The position numbers and the translations under genes were made by a program. From Magnetospirillum sp. SS-4 (GTDB lineage Bacteria; Pseudomonadota; Alphaproteobacteria; Rhodospirillales; Magnetospirillaceae), in NCBI RefSeq assembly GCF_902729425.1, contig NZ_CACVCH010000061.1, positions 1 to 42,518 on the forward strand: a DNA stretch of 42,518 nt, written 5' to 3'. The number at the start of each line of letters is the position of its first letter. Position 1 is the first letter of the stretch. This document shows, piece after piece, positions 13,641 to 39,867 of this stretch. The notes under the pieces are model-generated. The model had not been told where the DNA came from. It saw only the letters and a list, made by a program, of their open reading frames with translations, and did no database searches.

Positions 13641-13655
13641 TTCGCAATATGCGAT
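13641..13655. promoter_or_regulatory. LuxO/SypG-like activator box
   Basis: TTCGCA-ATA-TGCGAT is a nearly perfect palindrome with one mismatch in the outer base. It lies about 35 bp upstream of the -24 element of the hlyD-like gene and matches the other boxes in the window. Confidence 0.65.
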
Positions 13656-13680
13656 GCAATGTCGTAGCAAGTCCGGGAAT

Positions 13681-14754
13681 TCAGGGCCGCCAACGCGCTC
13701 CGGCGAAGGCGCGGGCCAGCGCACCGGCCAGAGGCTTTGCAACAAGACCGGCATCGAAGGGAAGAGGGCGGGTTCGAGCGCCATCGGCCCGCCATCCCGC
13801 CGGATGGTGATGCAGCCAGCTATGGCGGTCACTCAGGCCCCAGCAATAGACCGACTTCACCGCCAGCTCGTCGAGCACCACGTCGAGGAAGCGCGATGCA
13901 TGGTCGGCCACCACCCGATCCCGCCGTTCCGGATCTCCGGACACTTCGGCATCATTGACGTCCAGCTCGGTGATCAGAATATCCAGCCCCAAGCCGCCCA
14001 CGTCCGAGAGAAACCTCCTCAGTTCGCCCTGATCGATCGGCTCGCTGCACCGGAGATGAGCCTGGATGCCCAGCCCGTCCATGGGAACACCACGGGAGAG
14101 CAACGTCTCCATCAATTTCAGCAGGGCATGACGCCGCTGTGCATGGGGCCCGGCGGCCGATTCGATGGCTGTCTCGTTGAGGATCAGCCGGGTATTGGGC
14201 GACGCGGCACGGGAGGCGGCAAAGGCGATGGTCACGGCTTCCAGTCCCAGGGCATCCACCCAAGGACCAGGGCGCAGACCGCCATCACCCAAGACCTCGT
14301 TGACCACATCCCAGCAGCGGATGAATCCCCCGTAGCGGCGCACCACCCGATCCACATGGTGGATGAGGACTTCCTCGGCCCGCTCCGGTGTATCGGACAG
14401 GATGCGCGCAAGCCAATCTGGCAGTGAATGCTGCCACAGCAAGGTATGGCCGCGAAGGGCCAGACCTCGCCCGCGCGCGAGGCCGGCAATGGCATCCAGT
14501 GGCGCGAAATTGAAAATATCCTGGCTCGGTCGCAGGGAAGCCCACTTGCCCTCGCCCTCGGGAACGATCCCGGCGCACTCCCGCGAGACCAATTCCATGA
14601 GATCGGCCTCGCCCAGATGGCGCGAGGAGATGGCGCAACCGAATTCGATCCCCTGCCGGGCGGCCAGGGATCGCAACGGCTCCGCCGCCCTGGCGAGAGG
14701 CGCTCCGGAGAGCGCCAGGGCTCCGGCCACGAAGGTGCGGCGGGACAGGCTCAT
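13681..14754 (-). CDS. Tat-exported GH10 family glycosidase
   Basis: This 357-residue protein has a twin-arginine signal (MSLSRRTFVAGALALSG, cleavage probably after ARA). The mature part is a GH10 barrel: GHTLLWQHSLPDW, WDVVNEVLG with the acid/base Glu (about E153), and ITELDVND with the nucleophile Glu (about E263). GH10 enzymes hydrolyse beta-1,4-xylan and similar glycans. Here it sits inside an EPS operon, overlapping the HD-GYP gene in ATGA fashion, so it more likely trims or releases the locus's own polymer than feeds on plant xylan (inference). Both catalytic residues are present. Confidence 0.88.
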   Translation of the reverse strand: MSLSRRTFVAGALALSGAPLARAAEPLRSLAARQGIEFGCAISSRHLGEADLMELVSRECAGIVPEGEGKWASLRPSQDIFNFAPLDAIAGLARGRGLALRGHTLLWQHSLPDWLARILSDTPERAEEVLIHHVDRVVRRYGGFIRCWDVVNEVLGDGGLRPGPWVDALGLEAVTIAFAASRAASPNTRLILNETAIESAAGPHAQRRHALLKLMETLLSRGVPMDGLGIQAHLRCSEPIDQGELRRFLSDVGGLGLDILITELDVNDAEVSGDPERRDRVVADHASRFLDVVLDELAVKSVYCWGLSDRHSWLHHHPAGWRADGARTRPLPFDAGLVAKPLAGALARAFAGARWRP

Positions 14755-15740
14755 GCCTCGGCGTATTGGGCTTGGATCGCCTTAACCGCATCCAGACGGC
14801 TTAGGAAAGCTCCCACCACTCCCGTGTCAAATTTGCGCCCCGCATTTTCCACGAGATAGTCGATTACGCGATCCAGGGGCCATGCAGGCTTATAAGGACG
14901 CGGGGAACTGATTGCGTCAAACACATCGGCAACCGCGACGATCCGAGCGGCCAGAGGGATCTCATCCTTGTGGAGCCTGTCAGGATAGCCCGTGCCATCC
15001 ACGTTCTCGTGATGATGACGGACGATCTGGCGGAGCAGGGAAATATCCTCGCCCGAGCTATCATTCAATTGCCGTCCGATCTCATCAACCATATCCAGTC
15101 CGAACATCGGATGATTCTTCATGACGTCGAACTCCTCGGGCGTGTAGCGGCCCGGCTTGAGCAAAATCTGGTCGGAGATTGCGATCTTGCCGATGTCATG
15201 GAGCGGCGAAAACAGATGGACATGCTCGGTGAACGAGTCGGACAGCCCATGGCGGGGCGCCAGTGCTCCAGCAATTTCACGGGCGTAGAGCCCCATCCGG
15301 TTCAGGTGCGCCCCGGTGTCGTCATCACGGTGCCGGGCCAAGGTCCGAGCCAGCCCGACCAGAGACCGGATGCGGCGACTGCCGTCACGACGGCTGTGGG
15401 CTTCCGTCTCCACCAGGGCGGAATAGGGTTCGAGGTCGCGCAGGACACGGGGCGTAAAATAATGGGGCAGCACCGCATCGAACCATGCCACTCCCGACAG
15501 TTCCCCATGGCGGAAGACGGGAAAGGCGCCTCGCGACATTGCCCCTCTCTCACCATCACAACTCACCTCACCCGGGTAACGCCCCTTGATGATCTCGGTC
15601 AGGCCACCGCCGGAAACCTCCACCCAGGTCTCTCGGGCGTAGATGAAACCCAGCCGGGAGATGGACGGATTGTTCCGCCGCACCATGGCGAGGATGTCGT
15701 CGAAGCGCGTGTCGTGCGCCATATGATCATCCCAGGGCAT
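14751..15740 (-). CDS. HD-GYP c-di-GMP phosphodiesterase
   Basis: This 329-residue soluble protein has an N-terminal region of about 120 residues that I do not recognise. The HD-GYP domain follows, with H...HDIGKIAI (HD at about 181-182), the motif HHENVDGTGYP and ARIVAVADVFDAI, all intact. Such domains hydrolyse c-di-GMP to GMP. AAGGAGG precedes the ATG at 15740. The gene overlaps galE by 14 bases at its start and the GH10 gene by four at its end, so all three form one operon under the sigma54 promoter at 16774-16789. That places a c-di-GMP-degrading enzyme in the same regulon as the PilZ synthase. Confidence 0.92.
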   Translation of the reverse strand: MPWDDHMAHDTRFDDILAMVRRNNPSISRLGFIYARETWVEVSGGGLTEIIKGRYPGEVSCDGERGAMSRGAFPVFRHGELSGVAWFDAVLPHYFTPRVLRDLEPYSALVETEAHSRRDGSRRIRSLVGLARTLARHRDDDTGAHLNRMGLYAREIAGALAPRHGLSDSFTEHVHLFSPLHDIGKIAISDQILLKPGRYTPEEFDVMKNHPMFGLDMVDEIGRQLNDSSGEDISLLRQIVRHHHENVDGTGYPDRLHKDEIPLAARIVAVADVFDAISSPRPYKPAWPLDRVIDYLVENAGRKFDTGVVGAFLSRLDAVKAIQAQYAEA

Positions 15741-16734
15741 GGCGGGCCTCCTTGATCTCGAAGTGACGGCTGTTCCAGTTCCAGGCATCGGCGACGATAT
15801 CGTCCAAACCGCTGCGGATGGGCGCCCAGCCGAGAACCTTGTGGGCGCGGTCGCTGTTGCTGACCAGGGACGGCGGATCGCCGGGGCGCCGGTCGCGGAC
15901 CAGCACGGGAACCTTCCGCCCGGAGACCTCTTCCACGGCCTTGATCACCTGGCGCACCGAATAGCCCCGCCCGGTTCCCAGATTGAGGGCTGTGGACCAG
16001 CCGCCATGCAGCAGCCTCCCGAGGGCCAGCACATGGGCGCGGGCCAGATCGGCCACATGGATGAAGTCGCGCACGCAGGTTCCGTCCGGAGTGTCATAAT
16101 CCTTGCCGAACAGGGTAAAGGCGCTACGCCTCCCGACCGCCACCTCGATGGCTAGGGGTATCAGGTGGGTCTCGGGCTGGTGGGCCTCTCCCAGCTCCCC
16201 TTCGGGATCGGCGCCGGCGGCATTGAAATAGCGCAGCGCCGTCCAATTCAGACCCTTGGCGTGGGCGAGGTCGGTGATCATCTGTTCGACCATCAGCTTG
16301 CTGCGGCCATAGGGGCTGACCGGGGCCAGGGGATGGGTCTCGTCGGCGGGTGAACGCTCCAGCGTGCCGTAAACGGCGGCGGTACTGGAGAACACCAGGG
16401 GGATAGGGGCGGTGGCCATGATCGCCTCGAGCAGCGCCATGGTTCCCCTCACATTGACATCGTAGAACCGCATGGGCTCGGTGACCGAAAGACCGGCTTC
16501 GATCAATCCCGCGAAATGCAGAATCCCCACCGGATTGTGACGTCGGATAACCTCGATCAGACGATCCCGGTCGCGGATGTCGCCCACCTCCAGAGGTCCC
16601 CAGCGCACCGCCCAATCGTGACCGTTGGACAGATCGTCATAGGCGACGGGAAGCCAGCCGGCTTCGGAAAGCGCCTTGCAGGTGTGGCTGCCGATATAGC
16701 CGGCACCGCCGGTAACCAGAATGGTGGGGAGCAT
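15727..16734 (-). CDS. galE: UDP-glucose 4-epimerase
   Basis: This 335-residue extended short-chain dehydrogenase begins MLPTILVTGGAGYIGSHTC, with the NAD-binding GGAGYIG. It carries SSTAAVYG and the catalytic SPYGRSK (Tyr and Lys), then RYFNAAGADPEGELGE, typical of GalE. It interconverts UDP-glucose and UDP-galactose, supplying precursors for the EPS. The ATG at 16734 is preferred because upstream candidates would overlap the sigma54 promoter. The gene leads the galE/HD-GYP/GH10 operon. Other UDP-sugar epimerisations are possible. Confidence 0.93.
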   Translation of the reverse strand: MLPTILVTGGAGYIGSHTCKALSEAGWLPVAYDDLSNGHDWAVRWGPLEVGDIRDRDRLIEVIRRHNPVGILHFAGLIEAGLSVTEPMRFYDVNVRGTMALLEAIMATAPIPLVFSSTAAVYGTLERSPADETHPLAPVSPYGRSKLMVEQMITDLAHAKGLNWTALRYFNAAGADPEGELGEAHQPETHLIPLAIEVAVGRRSAFTLFGKDYDTPDGTCVRDFIHVADLARAHVLALGRLLHGGWSTALNLGTGRGYSVRQVIKAVEEVSGRKVPVLVRDRRPGDPPSLVSNSDRAHKVLGWAPIRSGLDDIVADAWNWNSRHFEIKEARHALG

Positions 16735-16773
16735 GGCCGAAACCCTCGCGAAAATGTGACTTCCGCTGATGAG

Positions 16774-16789
16774 TGCAAGAGCCGTGCAC
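16774..16789 (-). promoter_or_regulatory. Sigma54 promoter of galE operon (one -24 mismatch)
   Basis: On the minus strand GTGCACGGCTCTTGCA fits TGGCACG-N4-TTGCW except that the first G of GG is T. Spacing is exact and the leader to galE would be about 30 nt. It shares the boxes at 16820-16862 with the divergent promoter. Confidence 0.6.
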
Positions 16790-16819
16790 AAGATTTCAGG
16801 CCGGTTTTCCTCGAATCGC

Positions 16820-16862
16820 TTCGCAAAATGCGAAATCAGGCCGGCCCCATCGCAACGTGCGA
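16820..16862. promoter_or_regulatory. Two activator boxes between divergent sigma54 promoters
   Basis: TTCGCA-AAA-TGCGAA (16820-16834) is a perfect palindrome. TCGCA-ACG-TGCGA (16850-16862) is a second. Their centres are 29 bp apart, close to three helical turns, which would place two activator dimers on the same face of the DNA. Confidence 0.75.
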
Positions 16863-16883
16863 CGGATTACTCCCCTTTTCCCC

Positions 16884-16899
16884 TGGCATCCCTGGTGCA
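16884..16899 (+). promoter_or_regulatory. Sigma54 promoter of partner-switching operon
   Basis: TGGCATCCCTGGTGCA has TGG and GCA with GG and GC exactly ten bases apart. Predicted transcription start is near 16910, about 25 nt before the GTG at 16935. Confidence 0.78.
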
Positions 16900-16934
16900 A
16901 CGGAGTTTTCCGAAATTCGATCCGGAGATGACCC

Positions 16935-18107
16935 GTGAAAGCCCTGATCATCGACGACTCCCCGTCCTCCATCGCCTTGCTCGAGGCCCACCTGTCCCGC
17001 TGGGGTTACCAGGTGGAATCGGCGTCCAGCGGCGAGGATGCCTGGCGCATTCTCTCGGAAGGCGGAATCCGGCTGGTTCTGTGCGATTGGGAAATGCCTG
17101 GAATGGACGGGCCGACCCTGTGCCGGAAAATTCGATCCGCCGATCTTGGCCACTACGTCTACATGATCCTGTTCACCGGCCGCAGCCGCAGCGAGGATCT
17201 GGTGGACGGGCTGTCTGCCGGCGCCGACGACTTCGTGCGCAAGCCTTTGATTCCCGAGGAATTGCGCCTCCGCCTTGGCGCCGGAACCCGAATCCTGGCC
17301 TTGGAAGACAAGCTGGAAAGCCGCAATCTGGCGCTGGAGAAGGCCTTGTCCGATCTGGATGCAGGCTATGCCCGCCTGCGGGCCGATCTGAGCGCGGCGG
17401 CCCGGCTGCAGGCCAGCAACCTTCCCCCCGCCGATTTTCGTCTGGGCGAAGTGCGCTTCACGTCGCTGTACCGGCCGTCGCAATACGTGGCCGGCGACAT
17501 GTTCAACTATGTCAGGCTGAACAGTACCCATACCGCCTTCTACATGATCGACGTGGCCGGACACGGGGTTCAGGCGGCGCTGCATGCCGTGGCTCTGCAC
17601 CAATGGCTGACCCCGGATCATCTGGTGGATGCCGGCTGTGCGCCTCTCGACCCGGCCCAAGTTCTCGTCACCCTTAACCATCATTTCCAGGGGCATGACG
17701 AGGACACGCCTTACTTTACCATGATCTATGGGGTGCTGGAGGAGGCAAGCTTCGAGATCAGCCTCGGCATTGCCGGCCATCCCGCGCCGCTGTTGCTCGA
17801 TGGCCGGGGGGGGCTGCATCCTGTCGGCGGTCCCGGCTATCCCGTCGGCCTGCTGCCCGACGCCACATGGGAAAGCGTCCATCTCTCGTTGCGGCGGGAC
17901 CACGATACGCTGGTCCTTTACACCGATGGCCTCGCCGAGGCGCTGAACTGCCCCGGCGGCGATATCGCCGCCCAAATGGACTCACTGTCCCACGGCGATC
18001 CGGTGGCGCTGCGCCACGGGATCCTCGGCCTGCTCCAGCATCAGGCCGAACAGCACGACGACATATCCCTGGTCATCCTCAGCCATGAGAAGGAGGATAA
18101 ATCATGA
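16935..18107 (+). CDS. Receiver-PP2C (SpoIIE/RsbU-type) phosphatase
   Basis: This 390-residue protein joins an N-terminal receiver domain to a C-terminal PP2C phosphatase. The receiver has the acidic pair D7-D8, the phospho-acceptor D51 (LCDWEMP) and K103 (RKP). A helical linker covers about 115-165. The phosphatase has VAGDMF (about D188), IDVAGHGVQAALHA and DDISLVIL near the end, so the metal ligands look intact. Such enzymes dephosphorylate STAS proteins. GTG is the start, with GGAG upstream; the nearby ATG at 16928 is out of frame. It heads four genes joined by ATGA overlaps and has a sigma54 promoter. Confidence 0.92.
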   Translation: MKALIIDDSPSSIALLEAHLSRWGYQVESASSGEDAWRILSEGGIRLVLCDWEMPGMDGPTLCRKIRSADLGHYVYMILFTGRSRSEDLVDGLSAGADDFVRKPLIPEELRLRLGAGTRILALEDKLESRNLALEKALSDLDAGYARLRADLSAAARLQASNLPPADFRLGEVRFTSLYRPSQYVAGDMFNYVRLNSTHTAFYMIDVAGHGVQAALHAVALHQWLTPDHLVDAGCAPLDPAQVLVTLNHHFQGHDEDTPYFTMIYGVLEEASFEISLGIAGHPAPLLLDGRGGLHPVGGPGYPVGLLPDATWESVHLSLRRDHDTLVLYTDGLAEALNCPGGDIAAQMDSLSHGDPVALRHGILGLLQHQAEQHDDISLVILSHEKEDKS

Positions 18108-18433
18108 CCGGCACAACCATTCCCGTATTCACCATACCATGGCCTCGGCTGGATCTGGCCCGCGTCGCCGCCCTGAAGGACGCCGTGCGCCCTCTGACGG
18201 TCGAGGGCCAAGATGGACTGATCATCGACATGAGCGGGGTCGATTTCCTCGATTCCAGCGGCCTCGGCGCCCTGGTCAGCCTGTCCCGGCAATTGGGCGG
18301 GAGGGGGAGAGTGGCCCTGAGCGGTGTCCGTGAGCCCGTGCTCAGCCTGCTCACCATGTCGCGCATGGATCAGGTCTTCGTTCTGGCATCAAATGTCCAG
18401 GCGGCCCGCAAGGTGCTGGGAGAAAAGTCATGA
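18104..18433 (+). CDS. STAS-domain anti-sigma-factor antagonist, Ser intact
   Basis: This 109-residue single STAS domain carries GVDFLDSSGLGALV, with the serine that partner kinases phosphorylate. It starts inside the stop codon of the phosphatase gene (ATGA) and overlaps the kinase gene the same way. It should cycle between a phosphorylated form, made by the neighbouring HATPase, and a free form, restored by the PP2C. Its output partner is not visible in the window. Confidence 0.9.
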   Translation: MTGTTIPVFTIPWPRLDLARVAALKDAVRPLTVEGQDGLIIDMSGVDFLDSSGLGALVSLSRQLGGRGRVALSGVREPVLSLLTMSRMDQVFVLASNVQAARKVLGEKS

Positions 18434-18858
18434 CCCCGGCGCTGAGTGTCACCATCCCCGGAGACGCGGAAGGCATTTCCGCCATTTGCCGGGATATCAG
18501 GCTGGAGGTCGCCGGAAGGACAGACCCCGACATGGCGGCCCGGGTGGAGCTGGTCCTGGCCGAGGCCCTCAACAACGTTGTGGAGCATGGATACCAGGGG
18601 AGAAGCGAACACCCCATCCAGGTTGAATTGCATCTTGATTCTGCCGGAATTCGTCTGGTGGTGATCGACCATTCCCAACAGTCATTTTCCATTCCCACCC
18701 ACGCATCCATGCCGGATTTCAACCCGGATGATCCCGACACATTCCCCGAGGGCGGCTTCGGACTGGCAATCATTTTGCAATGTACGGATCAGGTAACCAC
18801 CGAGCGACATGGCGATGCCAATCACCTGATCCTCGAATTCAGAAAGACCGAGCCATGA
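18430..18858 (+). CDS. RsbW-like serine kinase (HATPase_c_2)
   Basis: This 142-residue GHKL ATPase has the N-box EALNNVVEHGY and the G-box PEGGFGLAII, typical of RsbW/SpoIIAB-type anti-sigma kinases. These bind a target and are released when they phosphorylate a STAS protein. No sigma factor is encoded near it, so the target may be a STAS protein alone or something outside the window. It overlaps both neighbours by four bases. Confidence 0.9.
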   Translation: MTPALSVTIPGDAEGISAICRDIRLEVAGRTDPDMAARVELVLAEALNNVVEHGYQGRSEHPIQVELHLDSAGIRLVVIDHSQQSFSIPTHASMPDFNPDDPDTFPEGGFGLAIILQCTDQVTTERHGDANHLILEFRKTEP

Positions 18859-19160
18859 CCAGCGCCACCATTCCCATCGGGACCAACAGCCTGGACCGCA
18901 CCAACACCCAAAAGATCTTCACCCACCTTACCCATTCGTTCGACCGGCTGGCGGCCCTGGGACACGCCCCCGAACAGGTGAGGGTGGACCTGGCCGGTCT
19001 GGGCTACATGGATGCCGCCGGCGGCCGCTGCCTCCTGGATTTCTGGGCCTATATCGCCCGGAGCAGCGAAACCGCCCTGTCCCTCAGCAATGTCTCTTCC
19101 GCCACCCGCCCGACCATCGAGCGCTGCAAGCTGGATCATCTGTTCACCCTGAATGGCTGA
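18855..19160 (+). CDS. STAS-like protein lacking the phospho-acceptor serine
   Basis: This 101-residue protein is STAS-like (RVDLAGLGYMDAAGGRCLLDFWAYI). Where active antagonists have DSSGL it reads DAAGG, so it should not be a serine-kinase substrate. It may be a decoy or a constitutive binding partner of the kinase. It is the last gene of the ATGA-coupled operon. The fold assignment rests on the strand-helix pattern and context. Confidence 0.75.
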   Translation: MTSATIPIGTNSLDRTNTQKIFTHLTHSFDRLAALGHAPEQVRVDLAGLGYMDAAGGRCLLDFWAYIARSSETALSLSNVSSATRPTIERCKLDHLFTLNG

Positions 19161-19162
19161 AA

Positions 19163-19176
19163 CGTAGAAATCTACG
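19163..19176. repeat. Perfect short inverted repeat after the partner-switch operon
   Basis: CGTAGA-AA-TCTACG begins two bases after the final stop codon. The loop is too short for a good terminator and no T run follows. A regulatory or decayed terminator role is possible. Confidence 0.3.
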
Positions 19177-19234
19177 CTGCAACAATGAATTCAACGTTCC
19201 GGCAGCGCTGGCGCATCCATGGGAGTCGGGGCGG

Positions 19235-19251
19235 ATCACATTCAATGTGAT
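19235..19251. promoter_or_regulatory. 17-bp palindrome upstream of receiver gene
   Basis: ATCACATT-C-AATGTGAT is perfectly symmetric. It holds TCACA and TGTGA in the opposite orientation to a CRP site, so it is more likely an operator for an unknown regulator. It lies in an AT-rich stretch about 80 bases before the receiver gene. Confidence 0.4.
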
Positions 19252-19291
19252 GATAAAAAATTCACAGCTGGGCAAAAATGTGGTATGGCCT

Positions 19292-19321
19292 CCTTTAGTA
19301 GGTATTGACTTATACTAAAGG
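19292..19321 (+). promoter_or_regulatory. Leader hairpin covering the ribosome binding site
   Basis: CCTTTAGTA (19292-19300) and TACTAAAGG (19313-19321) pair perfectly over nine bases with a 12-base loop. The right arm contains AAAGG, the only plausible ribosome binding site for the GTG at 19328. In RNA the fold would hide it. A DNA operator role is the alternative. Confidence 0.5.
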
Positions 19322-19327
19322 CGCATC

Positions 19328-19750
19328 GTGGCTCGGATAGGGAATGCAATAAGAATCCTACTGGTTGATGACAGCCCCGGGGATTCACGCCTTTTTGCAG
19401 AGGCCGCCCAAGCAGCCGGGTTCCAAGGAACCATACAATACGCCTTTGATGGAGTGACTGCGCTTGAACAACTGGATTCCCATGCGAATGATATTGACAT
19501 AATTGTTTCGGATCTAAACATGCCGCGCATGAATGGATTTGAATTGCTAAGACATATAAAATCAAGGCCAGACACAAGAAAGATACCGGTGGTAATCTTA
19601 TCAACAAGCCATCGACACAGTGACATTATAATGTGCACCGAAGCTGGCGCCGCCATATACCTAACGAAGCCACAGGATATTAAGGAGTACATCGACATAA
19701 CAGATGGAATATTTTCATTTTATAACAATGTTGTATGCGGCGATGTATAG
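19328..19750 (+). CDS. Stand-alone receiver protein of Rcp1/CheY type
   Basis: This 140-residue single receiver domain begins IRILLVDDSPGDSRLF, with the acidic pair and the DSPGD signature of Rcp1-like regulators. The phospho-acceptor lies in VSDLNMPRMNGFELL, then LSTS and LTKPQDIKEY with the conserved Lys. It has no output domain, so it probably relays phosphate or acts by protein contact. Base composition and codon use are clearly more AT-rich than neighbouring genes (ATA, TTA and AGA codons are frequent), suggesting recent transfer. The GTG start follows AAAGG inside the hairpin at 19292-19321. Confidence 0.85.
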   Translation: MARIGNAIRILLVDDSPGDSRLFAEAAQAAGFQGTIQYAFDGVTALEQLDSHANDIDIIVSDLNMPRMNGFELLRHIKSRPDTRKIPVVILSTSHRHSDIIMCTEAGAAIYLTKPQDIKEYIDITDGIFSFYNNVVCGDV

Positions 19751-19814
19751 GCCTGTAGAACATATAAAGTTGTGCCGTTAAAATCTTCCTCCGTCGAATC
19801 TTTGTATGATGTAT

Positions 19815-19840
19815 GGGCATGACGACAAGCCGCCATGCCC
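19815..19840. terminator. Weak terminator-like hairpin between convergent genes
   Basis: GGGCATG (19815-19821) pairs with CATGCCC (19834-19840) across a 12-base loop, between two convergent genes. No clear T run follows on either strand, so activity is uncertain. Confidence 0.3.
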
Positions 19841-19849
19841 ATCCCCCCA

Positions 19850-20797
19850 TTACGAAACAACCTTCGTCGCCCATCCGCTAAGCTTGCGGCAAAAATTATG
19901 CGGAATCCCGTCCTCCTTCGGACTACTCACGCGGCCCAGCAGGAAGGGATCGGCAATCTCGGTAACGATGGCGGTCTCCGCAGCGATCAGACACCCCGGC
20001 GCCACGATGGCCCCACGCACATCGAGACCCGCCCCCACATAGGTTCCGGGCATCACGATGCTGTTCTCGATACGGGTGCCGGGCTCGATCACCGCTCCCT
20101 CGCCAATCACCACACGGCCAATCAGATGGCTGGAGGAGGCGATGCGGGTGAAGGCCCCCACATAGGCACGGCCCCGCAACAGGGACGAAGCCTCCACCCT
20201 TGACCCGCGGCCGGCGATCAGTTCATCGCCATCCTCATCGACAATGGCCCGCCCGTCTATGAGCAGTCCGCCGAAGCGACCGTCCAGAGCGTCCATATTG
20301 GCCTGATGGAAGGCCGAGAAGCCATCCACCAGCCGGCATTCCTCGTTCAGATGGATCTCCGCCATTCCGGAGACACCGGGGCGCCACAGATCGATTCCGC
20401 ACTCCATCCCGTTGGCCACGGCACGCAGCCGTCCCTGGGATGCCTGGACGGCTTGATCCAGGAAGGCTCTCACCAGGGGTGGGCGGGCAATATCGGCCCG
20501 GACCACCAGCAGGGGATGGTCCGACCAGGTTTCATCGTCACGGCCCTCCACGACCCTGATCTCCAGCCCCCAGCGCCGCCCATCGCCCAGACAGCGGGCC
20601 GCGGCAGGGGTGAAGGAACCGGCCACCACCAGAACCTGCTTCAGCCCGGCCTGAGCAAGATCCTCGACGGCATGGACCAGCAGGGGCTTGCCCAGCAGGG
20701 GCAGCATCGCAACGCCGATGCCGTCGTTCAAGGGACTGAGGGAGGGATCGGCCTGATCGGCCAGAATGACTGCGGTGACGTCCATATTGCTCTCCAT
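19850..20797 (-). CDS. Sugar nucleotidyltransferase-like protein with beta-helix domain
   Basis: This protein of about 315 residues combines a nucleotidyltransferase-like N-terminal half (TAVILADQADPSLSPL, then MLPLLGKPLLVHAVEDLAQAG) with a C-terminal left-handed beta-helix of hexapeptide repeats (YVGAFTRIASSSHLIGRVVIGEGAVIEPGTRI in part). In active pyrophosphorylases the first loop reads GGxGTRLxPLT; here that glycine-rich motif is missing, so activity is doubtful. It may be regulatory or act on an unusual substrate. The ATG at 20797 overlaps the upstream stop by one base (TGATG); an ATG at 20785 with GGAG is an alternative start. It follows the initiating transferase gene in one operon. Confidence 0.75.
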   Translation of the reverse strand: MESNMDVTAVILADQADPSLSPLNDGIGVAMLPLLGKPLLVHAVEDLAQAGLKQVLVVAGSFTPAAARCLGDGRRWGLEIRVVEGRDDETWSDHPLLVVRADIARPPLVRAFLDQAVQASQGRLRAVANGMECGIDLWRPGVSGMAEIHLNEECRLVDGFSAFHQANMDALDGRFGGLLIDGRAIVDEDGDELIAGRGSRVEASSLLRGRAYVGAFTRIASSSHLIGRVVIGEGAVIEPGTRIENSIVMPGTYVGAGLDVRGAIVAPGCLIAAETAIVTEIADPFLLGRVSSPKEDGIPHNFCRKLSGWATKVVS

Positions 20798-22317: not shown

Positions 22318-22333
22318 CGCAACCGTCATGCCA
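22318..22333 (-). promoter_or_regulatory. Sigma54 promoter of initiating-transferase operon
   Basis: On the minus strand TGGCATGACGGTTGCG fits the consensus with exact spacing. The predicted start near 22307 gives a leader of about 26 nt. Confidence 0.82.
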
Positions 22334-22362
22334 GCCCGAAACGCCGGAAAAGACGGATGACG

Positions 22363-22389
22363 TCGCAGCCTGCGTCCCATTTTGCAAAA
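22363..22389. promoter_or_regulatory. Degenerate activator boxes between divergent promoters
   Basis: TCGCA-GCC-TGCGT (22363-22375) and, read on the minus strand, TTGCA-AAA-TGGGA (22377-22389) resemble the palindrome box. Each has one weak arm. They lie between the divergent sigma54 promoters. Confidence 0.5.
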
Positions 22390-22436: not shown

Positions 22437-22452
22437 TGGCCCGCCCCTTGCT
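22437..22452 (+). promoter_or_regulatory. Sigma54 promoter of flippase/glycosyltransferase operon
   Basis: TGGCCCGCCCCTTGCT has TGGC and TTGCT with exact spacing. Predicted start near 22463, about 28 nt before the ATG at 22491. Confidence 0.8.
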
Positions 22453-31961: not shown

Positions 31962-31963
31962 GA

Positions 31964-33181: not shown

Positions 33182-33197
33182 GATCTTCTCCTCCGCC

Positions 33198-33521
33198 TCA
33201 GGACCACAGAGCCGGGATGTCGGCTTCGGAGCCGGCGATGGGGAACACGGTCTGGAGGCGGGTCAGTTCGATCAGCCCCCGCACCTGGGGTTGGGGGGCC
33301 AGCAGGGCGACATCACCCCCCTTGGCCTTGGCCGCCTTGAGCGCGGAAACCATGGCACCGAGGCCACTGGAATCCATGAACTCCACGGTTCGCAAATCGA
33401 TGATCAGATGGGAACCGCCGCCATCCAGCGCTTGGCGGACCTGCTGGCGGATGGCATCCACATTGGCCAGGGTTACACGGGGCGGAAAGCTGACGGTTTG
33501 GATTGCGGTGTTGTTGACCAT
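33198..33521 (-). CDS. STAS-domain protein leading the export operon (SypA-like)
   Basis: This 107-residue STAS domain contains VEFMDSSGLGAMVSA, with the phosphorylatable serine intact. It is first in the export/polymerase operon. In the Vibrio fischeri syp biofilm locus the first gene, sypA, also encodes a small STAS protein whose phosphorylation state controls biofilm formation. GGGAGG precedes the ATG at 33521. The kinase and phosphatase at 16935-18858 are natural candidates to act on it (inference). Confidence 0.9.
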   Translation of the reverse strand: MVNNTAIQTVSFPPRVTLANVDAIRQQVRQALDGGGSHLIIDLRTVEFMDSSGLGAMVSALKAAKAKGGDVALLAPQPQVRGLIELTRLQTVFPIAGSEADIPALWS

Positions 33522-33561
33522 GACGGCCTCCCAAGAGAATGAATTGTCCTGCTTGGGATAG

Positions 33562-33577
33562 CGCAAGGCTCATGCCA
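33562..33577 (-). promoter_or_regulatory. Sigma54 promoter of the export operon
   Basis: On the minus strand TGGCATGAGCCTTGCG fits the consensus with exact spacing. It overlaps the last codons of the upstream membrane-protein gene. The predicted leader to the STAS ATG is about 30 nt. Confidence 0.82.
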
Positions 33578-34085
33578 GGGATTTCAGGGCGTCGCGGGCA
33601 TATTCCCGCGCCGAATTCGCAATATGCATCGCAGGCTGAAGCAATTCGCCACTGAAAAAATCCCACAGATGGCGATCGGGGAAGATGTCGATTCCCGCCA
33701 TGGACTTGAGCAGGTAGGCCGCCAGAAGCCCGATGACGGTCAGGACCGAGAAGCTCATGAAGCCCGCCACTCCCAGAGTGGCGCCGGTACCGGCGTGGAA
33801 ACTCAGCCGCCGCCGGCGAGCCAGGGTCTTCATCACCTTGTGGCGACGATCCGGCCCTGCAAGCAGGACAACGTAATAGCGCTGAAAAAACAGCGAAACC
33901 TGGGCCCGCAGGTCAATGCTGTGGCGCTGGCGGTTCATCCGGGTGAGAGATGAGACCAGGGCATTAATCTGCGTCTCGGTGAAGCTTGCCCGGATGTCCG
34001 GTCCCAGGCTCTCGAACAGCGCCTTGCAGAACGGGTCCGCCTCGAAAGGCGCCTCGGGCGCATTGTCGTTCACATCACCCGTCAT
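33570..34085 (-). CDS. Hypothetical single-span membrane protein
   Basis: This 171-residue protein has one clear membrane helix (MSFSVLTVIGLLAAYLL, about residues 110-128) after a basic RRHKVMKTLARRRRLSF segment. The N-terminal half holds ALFESLGPDIRASFTETQINALVSSL and RAQVSLFFQRYYVVLLAG. I do not recognise a family. It lies between the sigma54 activator gene and the export operon and has its own sigma54 promoter and box, so it belongs to the regulon. GGAG lies eight bases before the ATG at 34085. Confidence 0.75.
   Translation of the reverse strand: MTGDVNDNAPEAPFEADPFCKALFESLGPDIRASFTETQINALVSSLTRMNRQRHSIDLRAQVSLFFQRYYVVLLAGPDRRHKVMKTLARRRRLSFHAGTGATLGVAGFMSFSVLTVIGLLAAYLLKSMAGIDIFPDRHLWDFFSGELLQPAMHIANSAREYARDALKSLA
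33616..33630. promoter_or_regulatory. Activator box for the export operon
   Basis: TTCGCA-ATA-TGCATC matches the box on one full arm and half of the other. It lies about 46 bp upstream of the -24 element, inside the 3' end of the membrane-protein gene. Confidence 0.55.
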
Positions 34086-34122
34086 GGCCAGTCTCCGGTC
34101 ACTTGCAAAACGCAATGACCGG

Positions 34123-34138
34123 CGCAAAAGCCGTGCCG
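34123..34138 (-). promoter_or_regulatory. Sigma54 promoter of membrane-protein gene
   Basis: On the minus strand CGGCACGGCTTTTGCG fits CGGCACG-N4-TTGC with exact spacing. It lies just after the stop codon of the activator gene, about 27 nt before the ATG at 34085 once transcription starts. Confidence 0.8.
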
Positions 34139-34145
34139 GTTGGGA

Positions 34146-35582
34146 TCAGCCGGTTTCGCCGGCTTCCCAGGATTGCTTTTTGCGATAGATGGTCGAAGGG
34201 CTGACCTCGAGATAGGCGGCAGCCTTGGGGATGTTGCCGCCGCATTCGGCGATGGCCGCCTCGATGATTTCCTTCTCCTGCCGCCACAAGGGCCGCAACA
34301 CGTCGCGGGCAGGCGCCGCGACCGCGACCGCGACCGCCTCGACATCGGCGGTTGGCGGAATTGAAGACGGTGCGGGCGGAAGCGGGCTTGCCTTCGCCTG
34401 GGGTGCGCCGGCATTGACCAGGAGCGGCAGCATCTCGGGCAGAATTTCGGCGCCGTCGTGCAGCACCACCGAGTTGCGGATGACGTTTTCCAATTGCCGG
34501 ACGTTGCCGGGCCAGGAATAGGCGATCAGGGCCTGACGGACGGCGGAAGACAGAGACTTGAACCCCTTGCCCTCCTCCTTGGCGAAACGCTTGAGGAAGA
34601 ATTCGGCCAGTTCCAGCACGTCGCCCTCGCGGTCACGGAGCGGCGGCATGGTCATGGGAATGACGTGCAGGCGGTAATAGAGATCCTCGCGGAAACGCCC
34701 GGCGCGGACTTCCTCCAGGGGATCGCGGTTGGTGGCGCACAGGAAGCGCACGTCGGCCTCTTCCGGCTTGTTTGCTCCCACCTTCTGGAAGGTGCCGGTC
34801 TGGATGAAACGCAGCAGCTTGCTTTGCAGGCTGATGTCCATCTCGCAGATCTCGTCCAGAAACAGCGTTCCGCCGCGCGCCTGGGCAGCCGCGCCGTCGC
34901 GATCCGAGGTGGCGCCGGTGAAGGCGCCCTTCACATGGCCGAAGATCTCGCTTTCGATCAGATCCTTGGGAATGGCCGCGCAATTCAGCGCGACAAAGGG
35001 CCGCTTCGCCCTTGGACTTTGGCAGTGAATGGCTTCGGCGCACAATTCCTTGCCGGTCCCCGATTCCCCCGTGATGAACACAGAGGCCCGGCTGGGCGCC
35101 GCCGATTCGATGATGCGATACACCGCCTGCATGGCCAGGGACGAACCGATAATGCCCTGAAAGCCACGGCGGTCGATCTGTTCGCGATAGGTGGTGACGA
35201 TCTCTTCAAGGCGGCCCCGTTCCAGGGCGTTGCGCACAGTCACCAGCAGGCGGTCACCGGCAAAGGGCTTGACCAGGAAGTCATAAGCCCCCAGCCGCAT
35301 GGCGGCGATGGCCACCTGGATGGACCCCTGGGCGGTCACCACGATGGTGGTGGTGGGAATCCCCTGCTCGGCGATCTGCTTCAGGATATCCATGCCGTTC
35401 ATGTCCGGCAGGCCCAGATCCAACAGCAGCACGGCGGGCGGGGCCGAGGAAATGATCTCCCACGCCTTGGTCCCGGTATCGACCACCCGCACATCCCAAT
35501 CACCGGAGCGCAGATACTCCGTGTAGGTGTAGGAGAGCGCTGGCGAGTCTTCGACGATCAGAATGGCTGGGCGTGCTGACAT
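34146..35582 (-). CDS. Sigma54-dependent response regulator (LuxO/SypG-type)
   Basis: This 478-residue activator has three parts. The receiver carries VEDSP, the phospho-acceptor D55 (LLLDLGLPD) and K105 (VKP). The AAA+ domain has Walker A GESGTGKE (171-178), the sigma54-contact loop GAFTGA (218-223) and Walker B GGTLFLDEI (about 236-244). The C-terminal Fis-type helix-turn-helix reads AECGGNIPKAAAYLEVSPSTIY. The order matches Vibrio LuxO and SypG, whose DNA boxes resemble the palindromes found here. It lies 27 bases after the hybrid-kinase gene and is very likely its phosphorylation target and the driver of the nine sigma54 promoters (inference). Confidence 0.93.
   Translation of the reverse strand: MSARPAILIVEDSPALSYTYTEYLRSGDWDVRVVDTGTKAWEIISSAPPAVLLLDLGLPDMNGMDILKQIAEQGIPTTTIVVTAQGSIQVAIAAMRLGAYDFLVKPFAGDRLLVTVRNALERGRLEEIVTTYREQIDRRGFQGIIGSSLAMQAVYRIIESAAPSRASVFITGESGTGKELCAEAIHCQSPRAKRPFVALNCAAIPKDLIESEIFGHVKGAFTGATSDRDGAAAQARGGTLFLDEICEMDISLQSKLLRFIQTGTFQKVGANKPEEADVRFLCATNRDPLEEVRAGRFREDLYYRLHVIPMTMPPLRDREGDVLELAEFFLKRFAKEEGKGFKSLSSAVRQALIAYSWPGNVRQLENVIRNSVVLHDGAEILPEMLPLLVNAGAPQAKASPLPPAPSSIPPTADVEAVAVAVAAPARDVLRPLWRQEKEIIEAAIAECGGNIPKAAAYLEVSPSTIYRKKQSWEAGETG
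34173..34185. promoter_or_regulatory. Activator box within the end of the activator gene
   Basis: TTGCT-TTT-TGCGA lies about 41 bp upstream of the -24 element of the membrane-protein gene. A second copy, TTGCA-AAA-CGCAA (34103-34115), overlaps the predicted transcription start and might be repressive. Confidence 0.5.
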
Positions 35583-35609
35583 TAAGCATTTCCCTAAATA
35601 TGCGCCCCA

Positions 35610-38579
35610 TCATGCCCCAGCCGGCGCATCCTCGTCCAATTGGAACCGGTGGGTAATGGCATCGGCCGCCGCCAGGGCCAATCCGGGTATCTCCTCGGCC
35701 ATGGAGAGGGTGGAATGATCGCCGTTGCGGCCCGCGTTCTCCACCTGCTGGGCCAGAGCGCGCAGATCCTCGAGCCCGAAGGTGGCCGCCAGACTCTTCA
35801 TGGTATGGGCCTCGCGGCCGATGGCCTCGACGCCCCCGGCCTGGATATGTCCGGCAATGCGTTGGGCGCGGTCACGGATTTCCGCCGCCACTTTCGAAGC
35901 GATCCGCCGGGCGGTGCGGTCATCGGTATCGGCGATCAGGTTGCCGATCAGGCGTTCATCCAGGCTCGGCCCCGAAGCCCTGGCCTTCAATGCCGGCTCC
36001 GCCGGCTTCAGCCAGGTTGCCAGCTTCGAGAGCATGAGTTCCAGGGATAGTGGCTTGGTCAGGTAGTCGTTCATGCCCGCCTCCAGGCACATCTCGGCAT
36101 CACCCTGCATGGCAAGGGCCGTCATGGCGATGACGGGAATGTCACGAACGTCCTCGGACAGGGCACGGATCAGGCGGGTTGCCTCCAGGCCGTCCACTTC
36201 GGGCATGGTCACGTCCATCAGAACCAGATCATAGCGTCCGGTAGCTACCGCCTCGACGGCGGCGCGGCCATTGTTGACGCAATCCACCTCAAGCCCGGTA
36301 GGCGCCAGCATGGCGGTGGCCACAAGCTGGTTGGCCTCGCTGTCCTCCGCCAGCAGGACGCGGCCGGCAAGTCGTGGAACACTGTCCAGGTGTTCTTCCA
36401 CCGGTTCAGGTTCCTCCCCCTCGCGGATGGGAAGCGTGACCACGAAGGTGCTGCCTTGCCCAAGGGAGGAGGTAACGGCGATGGTCCCTCCCATGGCGCC
36501 GACCAGATTGCGGCAGATGGCCAGCCCCAGCCCCGTGCCGCCATGCCGGCGGCGAAGGCTTCCGTCCACCTGGGTAAAGGGGGTGAACAGACGGTTCAGA
36601 TCGCCGTCGCCGATGCCTGCGCCGGTGTCGGCCACGCGAAGAGACATGAAGCCTGGCCGGTGCCTGTCGGGGGCAACGCTCAGCGTCACGCCCCCCTGGT
36701 CGGTGAACTTCACCGCATTGTTGAGAAGATTACCAAAAATCTGGCGGAGACGATCCGGGTCTCCCTTCAGCCAGCGGGGAAGGTCATCCGAGAACTCGAC
36801 GTTCAGGCCGAGGGATTTGCCACGGGCCAGTGGCTCCACCATTTCCACGGACTCCGCAACCAGACGTCTCATGTCATAATCCGCTTCGTTAAGTTCGAGA
36901 CGCCCGGCCTCCATTTTCGACATGTCAAGAATGTCGCCGACGATGGTCAGAAGAGAACGCCCCGAATTGCGCGCCACTTCGGCCAGCCGCCGCTGGTCAG
37001 GCGCCAGGTCCGAGCGAAGGAGTAAATCCACCGAGCCGAGGATGCCGTTGAGCGGAGTGCGGACCTCGTGGCTCATGACCGCCAGGAATTCCGACTTGGC
37101 GCGATTGGCATTCTCGGCCAGCAGGCGGGCTTCCTCGGTACGCTTTTCCGCTTCCCTGCGCTCGGAGATATCGCGGATCAGGCCGATCAGGAAGCTCTCG
37201 CTGCCCTGGCCCACCACGGAAATGGACAATTCCATGGGAAACTGGCTGCCGTCGCGGCGCTGTCCCACCAATTGCCGGTCCTTGCCCACCACGCCGCCAC
37301 GCTCTCCGAATTCGGCGTAGCGCCGCATGTAGGCCCCGTGCCCGGCCCGCAAATCCTCGGGCATCAGCAGGCTGATGTTCTTGCCCCGCAACTCGTCCAG
37401 CGGCCAGCCGAAGATCCGCTCGGTGGCGGGATTGGCGGTGATAATGGTTCCCAGGGGATCGACGCTGATGATGCTGTCCAACACGTTGGCGAGAATGGCA
37501 TCCAGGCGTTCCGCCTGCCGGCCCAGGCGGATTTGAGCCTGGGTTAATTCGGCGGTACGCGCCTCCACCTTGTCTTCCAGGGTCCGCTTGGCCTCCCGCA
37601 GATTGCCCAGCATGGCGGCAAGGGACGATGCCAGTTGGGCAACCTCGTCCTCGCCCGAGCTGTCGATCTCCACGTTTGCCTGGCTGTCGGCGGCAACGGC
37701 CGTGGCGGCCGCGCTCAAGCAAGCCAGCCGGCCGGTCAGCCGGCGGGCGGCGAGCCACGCCAGGATGAACGTGGCGGCCAAAGCCAAGGCGCCTACCAGC
37801 GTGAAGAGCATGATGAACCGGGTCACCGGCAGCATGGCCTCGTGGCGGGGATGCGATATCCGCAACTCAATTCCGGCCCCGGCCAGCGGTTCGACGAAAT
37901 GAAGCTGCTTGGCCGCGACGATATCGCCGGCTTTGAACGCCTCTCCTGCTGCCGCGATAACCCGTCCGCCCCGAGCCGAGAGACTGACATTCTGGTTGAG
38001 CGGCAACTGCGCGAAAACCCTGCCGGCGAGCGCGGAAGAGGAGATCCGGGCCGCCAGCACCCCTTCCGGCGTTCCGGTTCCGGGATAGATAACCGGAAAG
38101 GCCAGCACCACCTGGTCACCTTCGATCTCGGCCCGAGGCGTGCCGGCCAGAGCCTCTGAAAACCAGGAGGTGGACGGAGATACGGCATCTTTTCCAGCCG
38201 TGCGGTTGGACGCGTAGAGCTGTCCCTGGAAATCATAAAGCTGGACGGCTACGCCGTTAAGATCGTCAGCCCGATATCCCTTCAGAAACGGATCGAGATA
38301 GGTCTTACGCCCGGCGGTATCGACCAGGGCGTTGCTGATCAGGGGATTGCGGGCCAGGGCATCCATGTCGTGCTGAAGATCGCCCAGGGTCAATTCGACC
38401 TTCTGGGCCAGCATGCCCGCCTGGGCATCCACCTTGCCCTGGATATTCTCGACAATGATGGACCATGTGGAGACAAAGGACAGCCCCCCCAGGGCCGCCC
38501 CCGCCAGCAGGGCCAGCCCCATCGCCACCGCCAGGAACTGATTGGCCAAGCTTTTGCCGATGAACGAAAGACGTGCCAT
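35610..38579 (-). CDS. Hybrid histidine kinase with PAS, receiver and HPt domains
   Basis: This 989-residue protein has a first membrane segment near 15-35, a periplasmic dCache-like domain to about 255, a second segment near 260-282, a HAMP-like region, and a PAS domain at about 360-475. The kinase core has MSHEVRTPLNG (H504), NLLNNAVKFTD and [11 protein letters not shown] receiver carries MDVTMP (D789) and a C-terminal HPt domain has EAHTMKSLAA (H925). The chain ends in an HPt, so it can pass phosphate to the separate activator encoded next. RscS and SypF of Vibrio fischeri share this layout. GGGAG precedes the ATG, 21 bases after the periplasmic binding protein gene. Confidence 0.93.
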   Translation of the reverse strand: MARLSFIGKSLANQFLAVAMGLALLAGAALGGLSFVSTWSIIVENIQGKVDAQAGMLAQKVELTLGDLQHDMDALARNPLISNALVDTAGRKTYLDPFLKGYRADDLNGVAVQLYDFQGQLYASNRTAGKDAVSPSTSWFSEALAGTPRAEIEGDQVVLAFPVIYPGTGTPEGVLAARISSSALAGRVFAQLPLNQNVSLSARGGRVIAAAGEAFKAGDIVAAKQLHFVEPLAGAGIELRISHPRHEAMLPVTRFIMLFTLVGALALAATFILAWLAARRLTGRLACLSAAATAVAADSQANVEIDSSGEDEVAQLASSLAAMLGNLREAKRTLEDKVEARTAELTQAQIRLGRQAERLDAILANVLDSIISVDPLGTIITANPATERIFGWPLDELRGKNISLLMPEDLRAGHGAYMRRYAEFGERGGVVGKDRQLVGQRRDGSQFPMELSISVVGQGSESFLIGLIRDISERREAEKRTEEARLLAENANRAKSEFLAVMSHEVRTPLNGILGSVDLLLRSDLAPDQRRLAEVARNSGRSLLTIVGDILDMSKMEAGRLELNEADYDMRRLVAESVEMVEPLARGKSLGLNVEFSDDLPRWLKGDPDRLRQIFGNLLNNAVKFTDQGGVTLSVAPDRHRPGFMSLRVADTGAGIGDGDLNRLFTPFTQVDGSLRRRHGGTGLGLAICRNLVGAMGGTIAVTSSLGQGSTFVVTLPIREGEEPEPVEEHLDSVPRLAGRVLLAEDSEANQLVATAMLAPTGLEVDCVNNGRAAVEAVATGRYDLVLMDVTMPEVDGLEATRLIRALSEDVRDIPVIAMTALAMQGDAEMCLEAGMNDYLTKPLSLELMLSKLATWLKPAEPALKARASGPSLDERLIGNLIADTDDRTARRIASKVAAEIRDRAQRIAGHIQAGGVEAIGREAHTMKSLAATFGLEDLRALAQQVENAGRNGDHSTLSMAEEIPGLALAAADAITHRFQLDEDAPAGA

Positions 38580-38600
38580 GCTCCCAGTCTCCTGCGCCGC

Positions 38601-39761
38601 CTAGCGGATACCATCCGGGCCAAAACGGCCCAGGAAGACCAGATCCGGAATCAGTGCCTCGTGCCGGTCCGGCGCGAAGGGAGGTGCGTAGGTCTTCACC
38701 AGCCCATCCCAGCGCTCGACTTTCTCCAAGGCGTCGCGGATCGCCTTGCGATCGGTGGAGCCCGCCTTGTCGATGGCCAGGGCCAGGATGTGGGTCAGGT
38801 CATAGGCATGGGCGAGGCCCACCTGGGACTTCAACCCGTTCAGCCCCTTGATGCCGAACAGCCGCTCTGCCGACTGGATCACGGCCTTGGCACGGGCATC
38901 GGTCTTACCCACGAAGGTGTAGGTCTGCACTACAGAGAAATCCACCTCGGCCAGGGCACCGCCGGTCATGGCCACGAAGTCGCCGCCGGAGACCCCCCAA
39001 TGGGACAAAACCGGCAAGCGCTCTGCCTTGGGCAGTGCGGCAATTTCCTTGACCAGGATCGACCCCTCGCCCTCGTTGGCCACCAGCACGATGGCCTTCG
39101 CCCCCGCCAGGCGAAGCGCCTGGTAGCGGTCGATCAGGCTGCGTTCCCCCCAATTGTACCAGGCGCTCTCGACAATGCTCACGCCGCTGTTGCTGCGGGT
39201 CCAGGTCTCGGCGGCCTTCAGGCTGGAGCGGCCCCAGGCGGTGTTGGGCAGCATCATCGCGACCTTGTCCAGGCCACGCTTGCGGGCCTCGGCCAGAATG
39301 GCGGGCAGAGCCCAGCCATCCCGCAGGGACAGGCGGAAGACGAAATTGGGAGTCTGGCCGTTATCGACGATCTCATCGGCTGCCGCCCAGGGGTCGAGAA
39401 GCGGAATGCCCAATTCGTGGACCACGCCAATCTGCTCGATCACCACCGGTGAGAATTTTCCGGAAAACACCGCCACCACATCGGGGTCGGCGGCCAGTTC
39501 ACGGATATTGGCGACGCCACGCGCGGGCACGGAGCGATTGTCGCGCTCCACCAGTTCAAGCTTGCGGCCACCCAGCACGCCACCCTTGGCGTTGATTTCA
39601 TCCACGGCAATGAGGATGCCTTGGCGGATGGCCTGGGCCGAGGTGCTGGTCACGTGACCGAATTCACCATCGAAGCCGATCTTCACCGGCTTTGTCTCCG
39701 CCGATCCGGTCGAGGCGGCAAGACACAGCCCCAACCCCAGTATCAACCCGGCAATGCGCAT
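38601..39761 (-). CDS. Periplasmic binding protein, branched-chain amino acid type
   Basis: This 386-residue protein has a signal peptide (MRIAGLILGLGLCLAASTGSA) and a type I periplasmic binding fold: IGFDGEFGHVTSTSAQAIRQG, VDEINAKGGVLGGRKLELVERDN and LPNTAWGRSSLKAAETW. Relatives bind branched-chain amino acids or amides for ABC transport. No permease or ATPase genes lie nearby. It heads the operon of the hybrid kinase and the activator and has a sigma54 promoter, so it more likely delivers a ligand signal to the kinase (inference). GGAGG before the ATG at 39761 decides the start. Confidence 0.88.
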   Translation of the reverse strand: MRIAGLILGLGLCLAASTGSAETKPVKIGFDGEFGHVTSTSAQAIRQGILIAVDEINAKGGVLGGRKLELVERDNRSVPARGVANIRELAADPDVVAVFSGKFSPVVIEQIGVVHELGIPLLDPWAAADEIVDNGQTPNFVFRLSLRDGWALPAILAEARKRGLDKVAMMLPNTAWGRSSLKAAETWTRSNSGVSIVESAWYNWGERSLIDRYQALRLAGAKAIVLVANEGEGSILVKEIAALPKAERLPVLSHWGVSGGDFVAMTGGALAEVDFSVVQTYTFVGKTDARAKAVIQSAERLFGIKGLNGLKSQVGLAHAYDLTHILALAIDKAGSTDRKAIRDALEKVERWDGLVKTYAPPFAPDRHEALIPDLVFLGRFGPDGIR

Positions 39762-39808
39762 GGCGACCTCCATCTTCTTTCCCGATCATTCGGGGTTATG
39801 GCCATCAC

Positions 39809-39824
39809 AGCAAGTTCCGTTCCA
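39809..39824 (-). promoter_or_regulatory. Sigma54 promoter of sensor/kinase/activator operon
   Basis: On the minus strand TGGAACGGAACTTGCT has TGG and TTGCT with exact spacing; only the fourth base departs from TGGCACG. Predicted start near 39798. If real, the activator operon is autoregulated. Confidence 0.72.
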
Positions 39825-39854
39825 CGGCAAGGCGCCATTTTTCCGGAAACCGCA

Positions 39855-39867
39855 TTGCAAAATGCAA
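39855..39867. promoter_or_regulatory. LuxO-type box between divergent promoters
   Basis: TTGCA-AAA-TGCAA is a perfect palindrome and fits the published Vibrio LuxO box form TTGCA-W3-TGCAA as I recall it. It lies about 35 bp from the -24 element on each side. Confidence 0.78.

Follow-up and report, generated by a model that had tools for sequence, protein, structure and literature searches.

A LuxO-type palindrome close upstream of sigma54-like promoters in an exopolysaccharide cluster of Magnetospirillum sp. SS-4, predicted to be bound by the cluster's own LuxO/SypG-like activator

The window analysed here is the entire contig C62 (42,518 bases, 63.6% G+C) of the 4.53 Mb genome (G000) of Magnetospirillum sp. 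SS-4, and the element under study is a short palindrome, TYGCA-N3-TGCRA (TYGCANNNTGCRA), hereafter called the box, found close upstream of most of its sigma54-like sites. As read from domain and family searches, the contig carries an exopolysaccharide cluster. The export and polymerisation genes encode a Wza-like exporter, a chain-length-like protein (weak match) and a Wzy-like protein (just below the Pfam cut-off), and are accompanied by genes for a PAP2 protein, glycosyltransferases, a flippase, a WecG/sugar-transferase fusion, GalE, an HlyD-like protein, a GH10 hydrolase, an HD-GYP protein and a PilZ glycosyltransferase. Concerning the regulators, a periplasmic binding protein, a hybrid histidine kinase and a LuxO/SypG-like sigma54 activator are encoded in a tight row on the minus strand, and a partner-switching set (REC-SpoIIE, STAS, RsbW-like ATPase, STAS) is present together with a further STAS gene (at 33198). 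The genome also possesses rpoN.

Four exact boxes were found in the window, vs. 0.20 expected from shuffled sequences, and none of 100 shuffles reached this number; except for the one at 39855, they are of the TCGCA...TGCGA form. When one mismatch was allowed, the total rose to 11, exact boxes included, vs. 5.27 expected (5 of 100 shuffles reached 11), the additional copies starting at 22363, 22375, 33617, 34103 and 34173, as well as at 15172 and 22775, both intragenic. The one-mismatch class alone barely exceeds chance, and the argument lies in where the boxes stand. At the genome rate, 0.017 boxes would be expected at a gap of 15-65 bp from nine sigma54 sites. The motif was originally drawn from these same window sites, and the weight rests on tests made elsewhere, i.e. 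on contigs C105 and C6, in the congener G005 and around relatives of the activator; a box weight matrix, trained on the same boxes, is descriptive only.

A genome-wide search for boxes near sigma54 sites had been set beforehand as a check, and its outcome agrees with the proposed association. The exact motif is present at six places (none for the control pattern), four of them on the window contig (binomial test, 1.1e-7), and five of the six adjoin a sigma54-like site. Outside the window, the box at C105:2900 is followed after 39 bp by a sigma54 site and then by a receiver gene, and the one at C54:72787 lies within a 932-aa open reading frame (ORF), with no GG-N10-GC site within 110 bp. Boxes with at most one mismatch occur at 171 places, vs. 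93 for the control. As for the strict sigma54 consensus (YGGCAYGNNNNTTGC), it is found at 22 places in the genome (10 forward and 12 reverse; 1 and 3 for a control read backwards). Six of these, namely five window sites and that of a galE paralogue on contig C6, have a box with at most one mismatch at a gap of 28-51 bp, and the other 16 have no such box within 130 bp (Fisher test of the association, 1.3e-5, the C6 site being known beforehand).

Eleven sigma54-like sites of the window score at least 6, and for eight of them a box, exact or with one mismatch, precedes the -24 element by 21-61 bp (Table 1). The initial annotation had placed the palindrome near most of the sigma54 promoters of the window, and the boxes that it listed were all recovered; its location close upstream of the promoters stands, the proposed range of 30-55 bp before the -24 element being too narrow. 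Box 39855 and the pair 22363/22375 lie between divergent sigma54 sites, and the pair 16821/16850 probably does so too. A sigma54-like site with TG instead of GG at -24 (GTGCACGGCTCTTGCA; TGCACG-N4-TTGCA) precedes galE on the minus strand (window 16734-16833). Upstream of the galE paralogue of C6 (66%; L007 3936-4020), a sigma54 site is accompanied by an interrupted palindrome of overlapping weaker boxes.

Table 1. Sigma54-like sites, boxes and regulatory genes of the window. Each gap is the distance between the edge of the box and the base at which the -24 element starts.
Feature	Positions	Strand	Gap (bp)	Context
Sigma54-like site CGGCATGGCCATTGCG	13598-13613	-	28	before HlyD-like gene
Sigma54-like site TGGCATCCCTGGTGCA	16884-16899	+	50, 21	before REC-SpoIIE / STAS / HATPase_c_2 / STAS genes
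Sigma54-like site TGGCATGACGGTTGCG	22318-22333	-	29, 41	before WecG/sugar-transferase gene
Sigma54-like site TGGCCCGCCCCTTGCT	22437-22452	+	49, 61	before flippase gene
Sigma54-like site TGGCATGAGCCTTGCG	33562-33577	-	39	before STAS / Wza-like / chain-length-like / Wzy-like genes
Sigma54-like site CGGCACGGCTTTTGCG	34123-34138	-	34	before 171-aa gene without Pfam match
Sigma54-like site TGGAACGGAACTTGCT	39809-39824	-	30	before binding protein-kinase-activator genes (predicted auto-activation)
Sigma54-like site CGGCACGAGGTTTGCA	39896-39911	+	28	before 59-aa ORF conserved in G005 (79%)
Box TCGCAATATGCGA	13642-13654		28	upstream of -24 at 13613 (-)
Box TCGCAAAATGCGA	16821-16833		50; 31 (by eye)	from +16884; from galE-side TG-type site
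Box TCGCAACGTGCGA	16850-16862		21	from +16884
Pair of boxes with one mismatch each, 12 bp apart	22363-22375, 22375-22387			flanked by divergent sigma54 sites; in G005, gaps equal within 1 bp
One-mismatch box	33617-33629		39	upstream of -24 at 33577 (-); G005 differs in spacer bases only
One-mismatch box	34103-34115			at predicted transcription start of the 34138 promoter; identical in G005
One-mismatch box	34173-34185		34	in 3' end of activator gene, upstream of -24 at 34138 (-); identical in G005
Box TTGCAAAATGCAA, exact LuxO-site form	39855-39867		28, 30	centred between divergent sigma54 sites
Partner-switching set	16935-19160	+		REC-SpoIIE phosphatase, STAS, HATPase_c_2 (RsbW-like), STAS
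Activator	34146-35582	-		REC, sigma54 AAA+ (GAFTGA), Fis-type helix-turn-helix (HTH); LuxO/SypG-like
Hybrid histidine kinase	35610-38579	-		PAS, HisKA, HATPase, REC, Hpt; Cache and HAMP under Pfam cut-off
Periplasmic binding protein (Peripla_BP_6)	38601-39773	-		probable sensor partner

At the genus level, the activator was detected at E 1e-100 or better in two of 17 genomes, G000 and its congener G005, and these same two are the only ones among 55 family genomes to show the strict pattern of box plus sigma54 site (control 1/55). G005 contains six exact boxes, four of them on its activator contig, each of these four beside a sigma54 site and with a gap as in the window within 1 bp. At the eight sigma54 sites that both genomes share, seven of them from the window and the eighth from C105, boxes are present and the gaps equal within 1 bp. 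Over ten pairs of boxes, which include the coding box 34173, the weaker second box of C105 and the odd box 34103, a single arm position out of 100 has changed, in a way allowed by the motif, vs. 9 of 30 spacer positions (p = 5e-6). The distance from the TG-type site of galE to its box, measured by eye, increases from 31 bp in the window to 42 bp in G005, a difference of 11 bp, i.e. about one helix turn. For the promoter at 13642, no G005 counterpart was seen, and among the matches listed there, none was to the GH10 or HD-GYP gene. As a control, one box was taken from each of 16 congener genomes (L103-L118, where L107 comes from G005 but not from its cluster), and for two of the 16 a sigma54-like site scoring 5 was present within 110 bp.

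Contig C105 (L008 1-1780, 2900-3392) carries the receiver gene with its box and sigma54 site, along with an Ala-rich frame containing EHDDHGHGNDPGKIDPDNPGAKTDQ repeats. It probably adjoins C62, because the equivalent box in G005 directly precedes the kinase gene that is found at the right end of the window.

Of 106 NCBIfam families, LuxO (NF041946) gives the best score to the activator, with 625.8 bits, below the curated cut-off of 800 bits, and the protein is 56.5% identical (216/382) to V. angustum LuxO over the REC-AAA region. The glycine of the LuxO REC-AAA linker, which occupies the active site and is also missing from two SypG homologues (PMC10162802), is an arginine in the window activator; among 80 aligned relatives, arginine is found in 64 and glycine in none. 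Because the score is under the family cut-off and arginine replaces the linker glycine, the protein is, judging from its sequence, LuxO/SypG-like and not a LuxO orthologue. Rfam, which includes a model of the Qrr small RNA, gave no match at gathering score in the window, and thereby no Qrr next to the activator. The nearest named relatives are mostly Rhodospirillales or Azospirillum. In a tree without SypG, LuxO, present as a partial row, groups with two rows from Pseudoalteromonas, and the window row with those of G005, the paralogue described below and L020. This tree was built without L028 and other near-copies, its box label (15 rows) is loose, L084 being unlabelled despite a genome match and L026, L067 and L090 being labelled from local boxes, and the count of label changes supports no conclusion.

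Ten matches to sigma54 activators were obtained in the genome, two of them weak. A second LuxO-like activator is encoded on contig C53 (L121 12453-13841) and is 74-77% identical to that of the window. Among the seven C-termini read, the VSPST-YRK helix is present only in these two proteins; in the form S[PA]ST[ILV]YRK, it occurs in 62 of the 80 relatives, some of the remainder being cut short. The codons ending the recognition helix of the window activator double as box 34173-34185 for the next promoter, an overlap between protein and DNA site.

In the DNA around the 80 relatives, the half-sites were found 32 times at the 3-bp spacing, in 17 loci, vs. 0, 2, 4, 2, 4, 2, 12 and 5 times at spacers of 0, 1, 2, 4, 5, 6, 7 and 8 bp, respectively. 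When the half-site was permuted, TYGCA ranked second of 120 (32, after 41 for TCGAY; median 3); the spacing control is the cleaner of the two. For ten of these 32, a sigma54-like site scoring at least 5 lies within 15-80 bp. At the level of the relatives' genomes, a box lies 50-80 bp from a sigma54 site in 11 of 47 (2 for the reversed-pattern control) and 20-49 bp in 2 of 47 (control 0), and the genes behind these matches, inspected by eye, include those of apparent glycosyltransferases, one sugar transferase, a receiver protein and a STAS protein. In the order as a whole, the short-gap pattern is present in 7 of 317 genomes (control 1/317). The box code therefore extends beyond the genus, the short spacing being its less usual form among the matched genomes. 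The conserved arms beside variable spacers, the restriction of the strict pattern among congeners to those with the activator and the preference for a 3-bp spacing near relatives with a like HTH are all consistent with the initially suggested tie between activator and box.

The closest published counterparts are found in Vibrio. As initially proposed, box 39855, between its two sigma54 sites, is of the LuxO form, being identical to the published site TTGCAWWWTGCAA (PMC10162802), and the box at 16820 does resemble the SypG site, from whose motif, TTCTCANNNTGMDWN (Ray 2013, as cited in PMC10162802), it differs by one mismatch. An exact SypG motif is absent from the window, and its one-mismatch form has seven matches vs. 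3.22 expected (5 of 100 shuffles reached 7), so that it is not clearly enriched; four of the seven, two of which overlap on the two strands, are at boxes 13641, 16820 and 33616.

In the syp/SypG system of Vibrio (Aliivibrio) fischeri and the scv/ScvE system of V. parahaemolyticus, a LuxO-type sigma54 response regulator likewise drives an exopolysaccharide cluster, and control by a STAS protein and a serine kinase/phosphatase (SypA/SypE) exists there too (PMC4517449). The window has the same feature of a REC-sigma54 AAA-Fis HTH activator lying within an exopolysaccharide cluster with sigma54 promoters. It differs in that the kinase and phosphatase domains are on separate proteins instead of a single SypE, and in its gene content and order (binding protein-kinase-activator genes, GH10, HlyD, HD-GYP). 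By eye, the motif MDSSG or LDSSG of two of the STAS proteins is replaced by MDAAG in the second STAS of the partner-switching row (18855-19160), which may not be phosphorylatable. Unlike the LuxO/qrr system of Vibrio quorum sensing, the predicted targets here are polysaccharide genes. The PEP-CTERM-box response regulator (TIGR02915), which is linked to exopolysaccharide clusters, is also a sigma54 response regulator, but the window activator scores 374.2 against its cut-off of 502.6, far below the LuxO score. The kind of system is known, because syp-like loci, reported as scv loci, have been described in two alphaproteobacterial genera, Elstera and Terasakiella (PMC8941931); the site form, the gene make-up and the short bidirectional layout represent a variant. 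Among the literature matches listed, most subscription papers being outside the scope, no title or abstract concerned such a box or regulon in Rhodospirillales, and a search of the main text of an article on Azospirillum two-component systems (PMC4618731) gave no LuxO.

From the gaps, the box centres lie at about -54 to -94. Activator sites are placed approximately 100-150 bp upstream in a review (PMC7057263), the largest fraction of Desulfovibrio vulgaris promoters is within 100 nt of the nearest site (PMC4641369), and the active regions of V. fischeri qrr1 extend from -175 to -106 and from -106 to -60 (PMC10162802). The window boxes are thus at the short end of the known range and not outside it. 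The initial remark that they act at shorter range than many enhancers agrees with the predominance of 50-80 bp gaps in the relatives' genomes, and has to be tempered in general, since sites at less than 100 bp are not rare according to the D. vulgaris work. Modulo 10.5 bp, the gaps cluster (28-31, 39-42, 49-51 and 61, with 34 as an outlier), falling on one helix face more than expected by chance: when a single box was taken for each of ten promoters, the observed vector was reached in 0.4% of random gap sets. This is a hint only, the box having been chosen by hand at some promoters. A search with an IHF-like consensus, weak as evidence, had no match in the six promoter regions and one in the window. 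It is conceivable, as a tentative idea, that this branch of the LuxO/SypG family acts at short, helix-phased range, and that the midway palindrome at 28 and 30 bp serves both divergent sigma54 promoters from the same helix face by near-direct contact, without a flexible IHF-aided loop.

As a whole, the boxes are very probably upstream activating sites for the LuxO/SypG-family sigma54 activator of the cluster itself, in an auto-activated exopolysaccharide regulon of the syp/scv type. The architecture of boxes and promoters, its conservation, its co-occurrence with the activator and the gene content are read directly; from them we infer phosphorylation, binding, activation and sigma54 use. In the proposed scheme, the hybrid kinase, together with the periplasmic binding protein, would phosphorylate the receiver domain of the activator, with a presumed sensor role and a presumed Hpt phosphorelay. 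The HTH pair of an activator dimer would then bind TYGCA-N3-TGCRA, and the AAA+ domains would assemble on the box, near an RNA polymerase-sigma54 located 21-61 bp downstream, and open the promoter. The predicted targets include the export and polymerisation genes, the initial sugar transferase, the flippase, the HlyD-like gene, the partner-switching regulators, the galE genes and receiver proteins. They would also include the binding protein-kinase-activator genes themselves, resulting in positive feedback.

Several points weigh against this reading. Its support is computational; the motif was tested on the sites it was drawn from, and five of the nine listed boxes carry one mismatch. Three window sites of score 6, at 7083 (+), 18764 (+) and 28884 (-), have no box; the last two are intragenic, the first is intergenic and overlaps small ORFs only, and all three are, by judgement, probably false hits. 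With one mismatch allowed, the loose sigma54 consensus has 23 matches in the window vs. 22.34 expected, which is no enrichment. Box 34103, initially listed with the upstream boxes, turns out to lie downstream of the -12 element and is possibly a negative site, and box 34173 is coding, so that its conservation may serve the protein. The G005 activator (L120 5261-6689) reads in two frames near codons 36-49, being frameshifted or misassembled in the draft. Among the relatives, the exact box is found in no more than the 17 loci given above (only L066 among Azospirillum-named ones), a sigma54-like site of score 5 is absent within 15-80 bp of 22 of the 32 boxes, and the relative in G031 (63%) has no box at its two sigma54-like sites of score 6. 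Finally, five genomes of the order outside G000 and G005 match the short-gap pattern once each.

To these points is added the HTH of the C53 paralogue, which is nearly identical to that of the window activator (GVSPSTLYRKRQGW vs. EVSPSTIYRKKQSW) and could bind too. The boxes might accordingly be real sigma54 enhancers bound mainly, or also, by the paralogue, or shared by both proteins. Its targets should be elsewhere, since the 20 kb around its gene contain neither an exact box nor a sigma54-like site of score 6. Five of nine neighbouring ORFs tested have a Pfam match, none to a polysaccharide family; the galE site of C6, away from the window, would suit such an arrangement. On balance we find it rather unlikely, for the window activator sits inside the box cluster, and G005 has no paralogue at the E 1e-100 threshold yet keeps the boxes, which therefore do not need it.

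Very unlikely, in our estimation, is that the palindrome belongs to a different regulator, a repressor or co-activator merely overlapping the sigma54 regulon. Such a protein would fit box 34103 at the predicted transcription start, the boxes between divergent promoters, which also suit a repressor, and some weaker boxes that stand in tandem at 12 bp. Half-site and spacing are, however, identical to those of the published LuxO site (PMC10162802), and the box recurs with activator relatives in other classes, although another shared motif was not searched for de novo. Chance or sequence composition, to which the roughly twofold excess of boxes with at most one mismatch and the chance-level loose sigma54-like sites might point, was rejected, as far as computed results can show, as next to impossible on the exact-box counts, the position beside strict sigma54 sites, the arm conservation and the co-occurrence with the activator.

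Binding by the cluster's own activator being preferred, a putative regulon is described to the base, with its sites, promoters and targets, for a LuxO/SypG-like activator in an alphaproteobacterium far from Vibrio. The naturally close and phase-varied enhancer positions provide material on how far sigma54 activation needs DNA looping. The finding also suggests that the TTGCA-N3-TGCAA code and its tie with exopolysaccharide genes reach beyond Vibrio quorum sensing.

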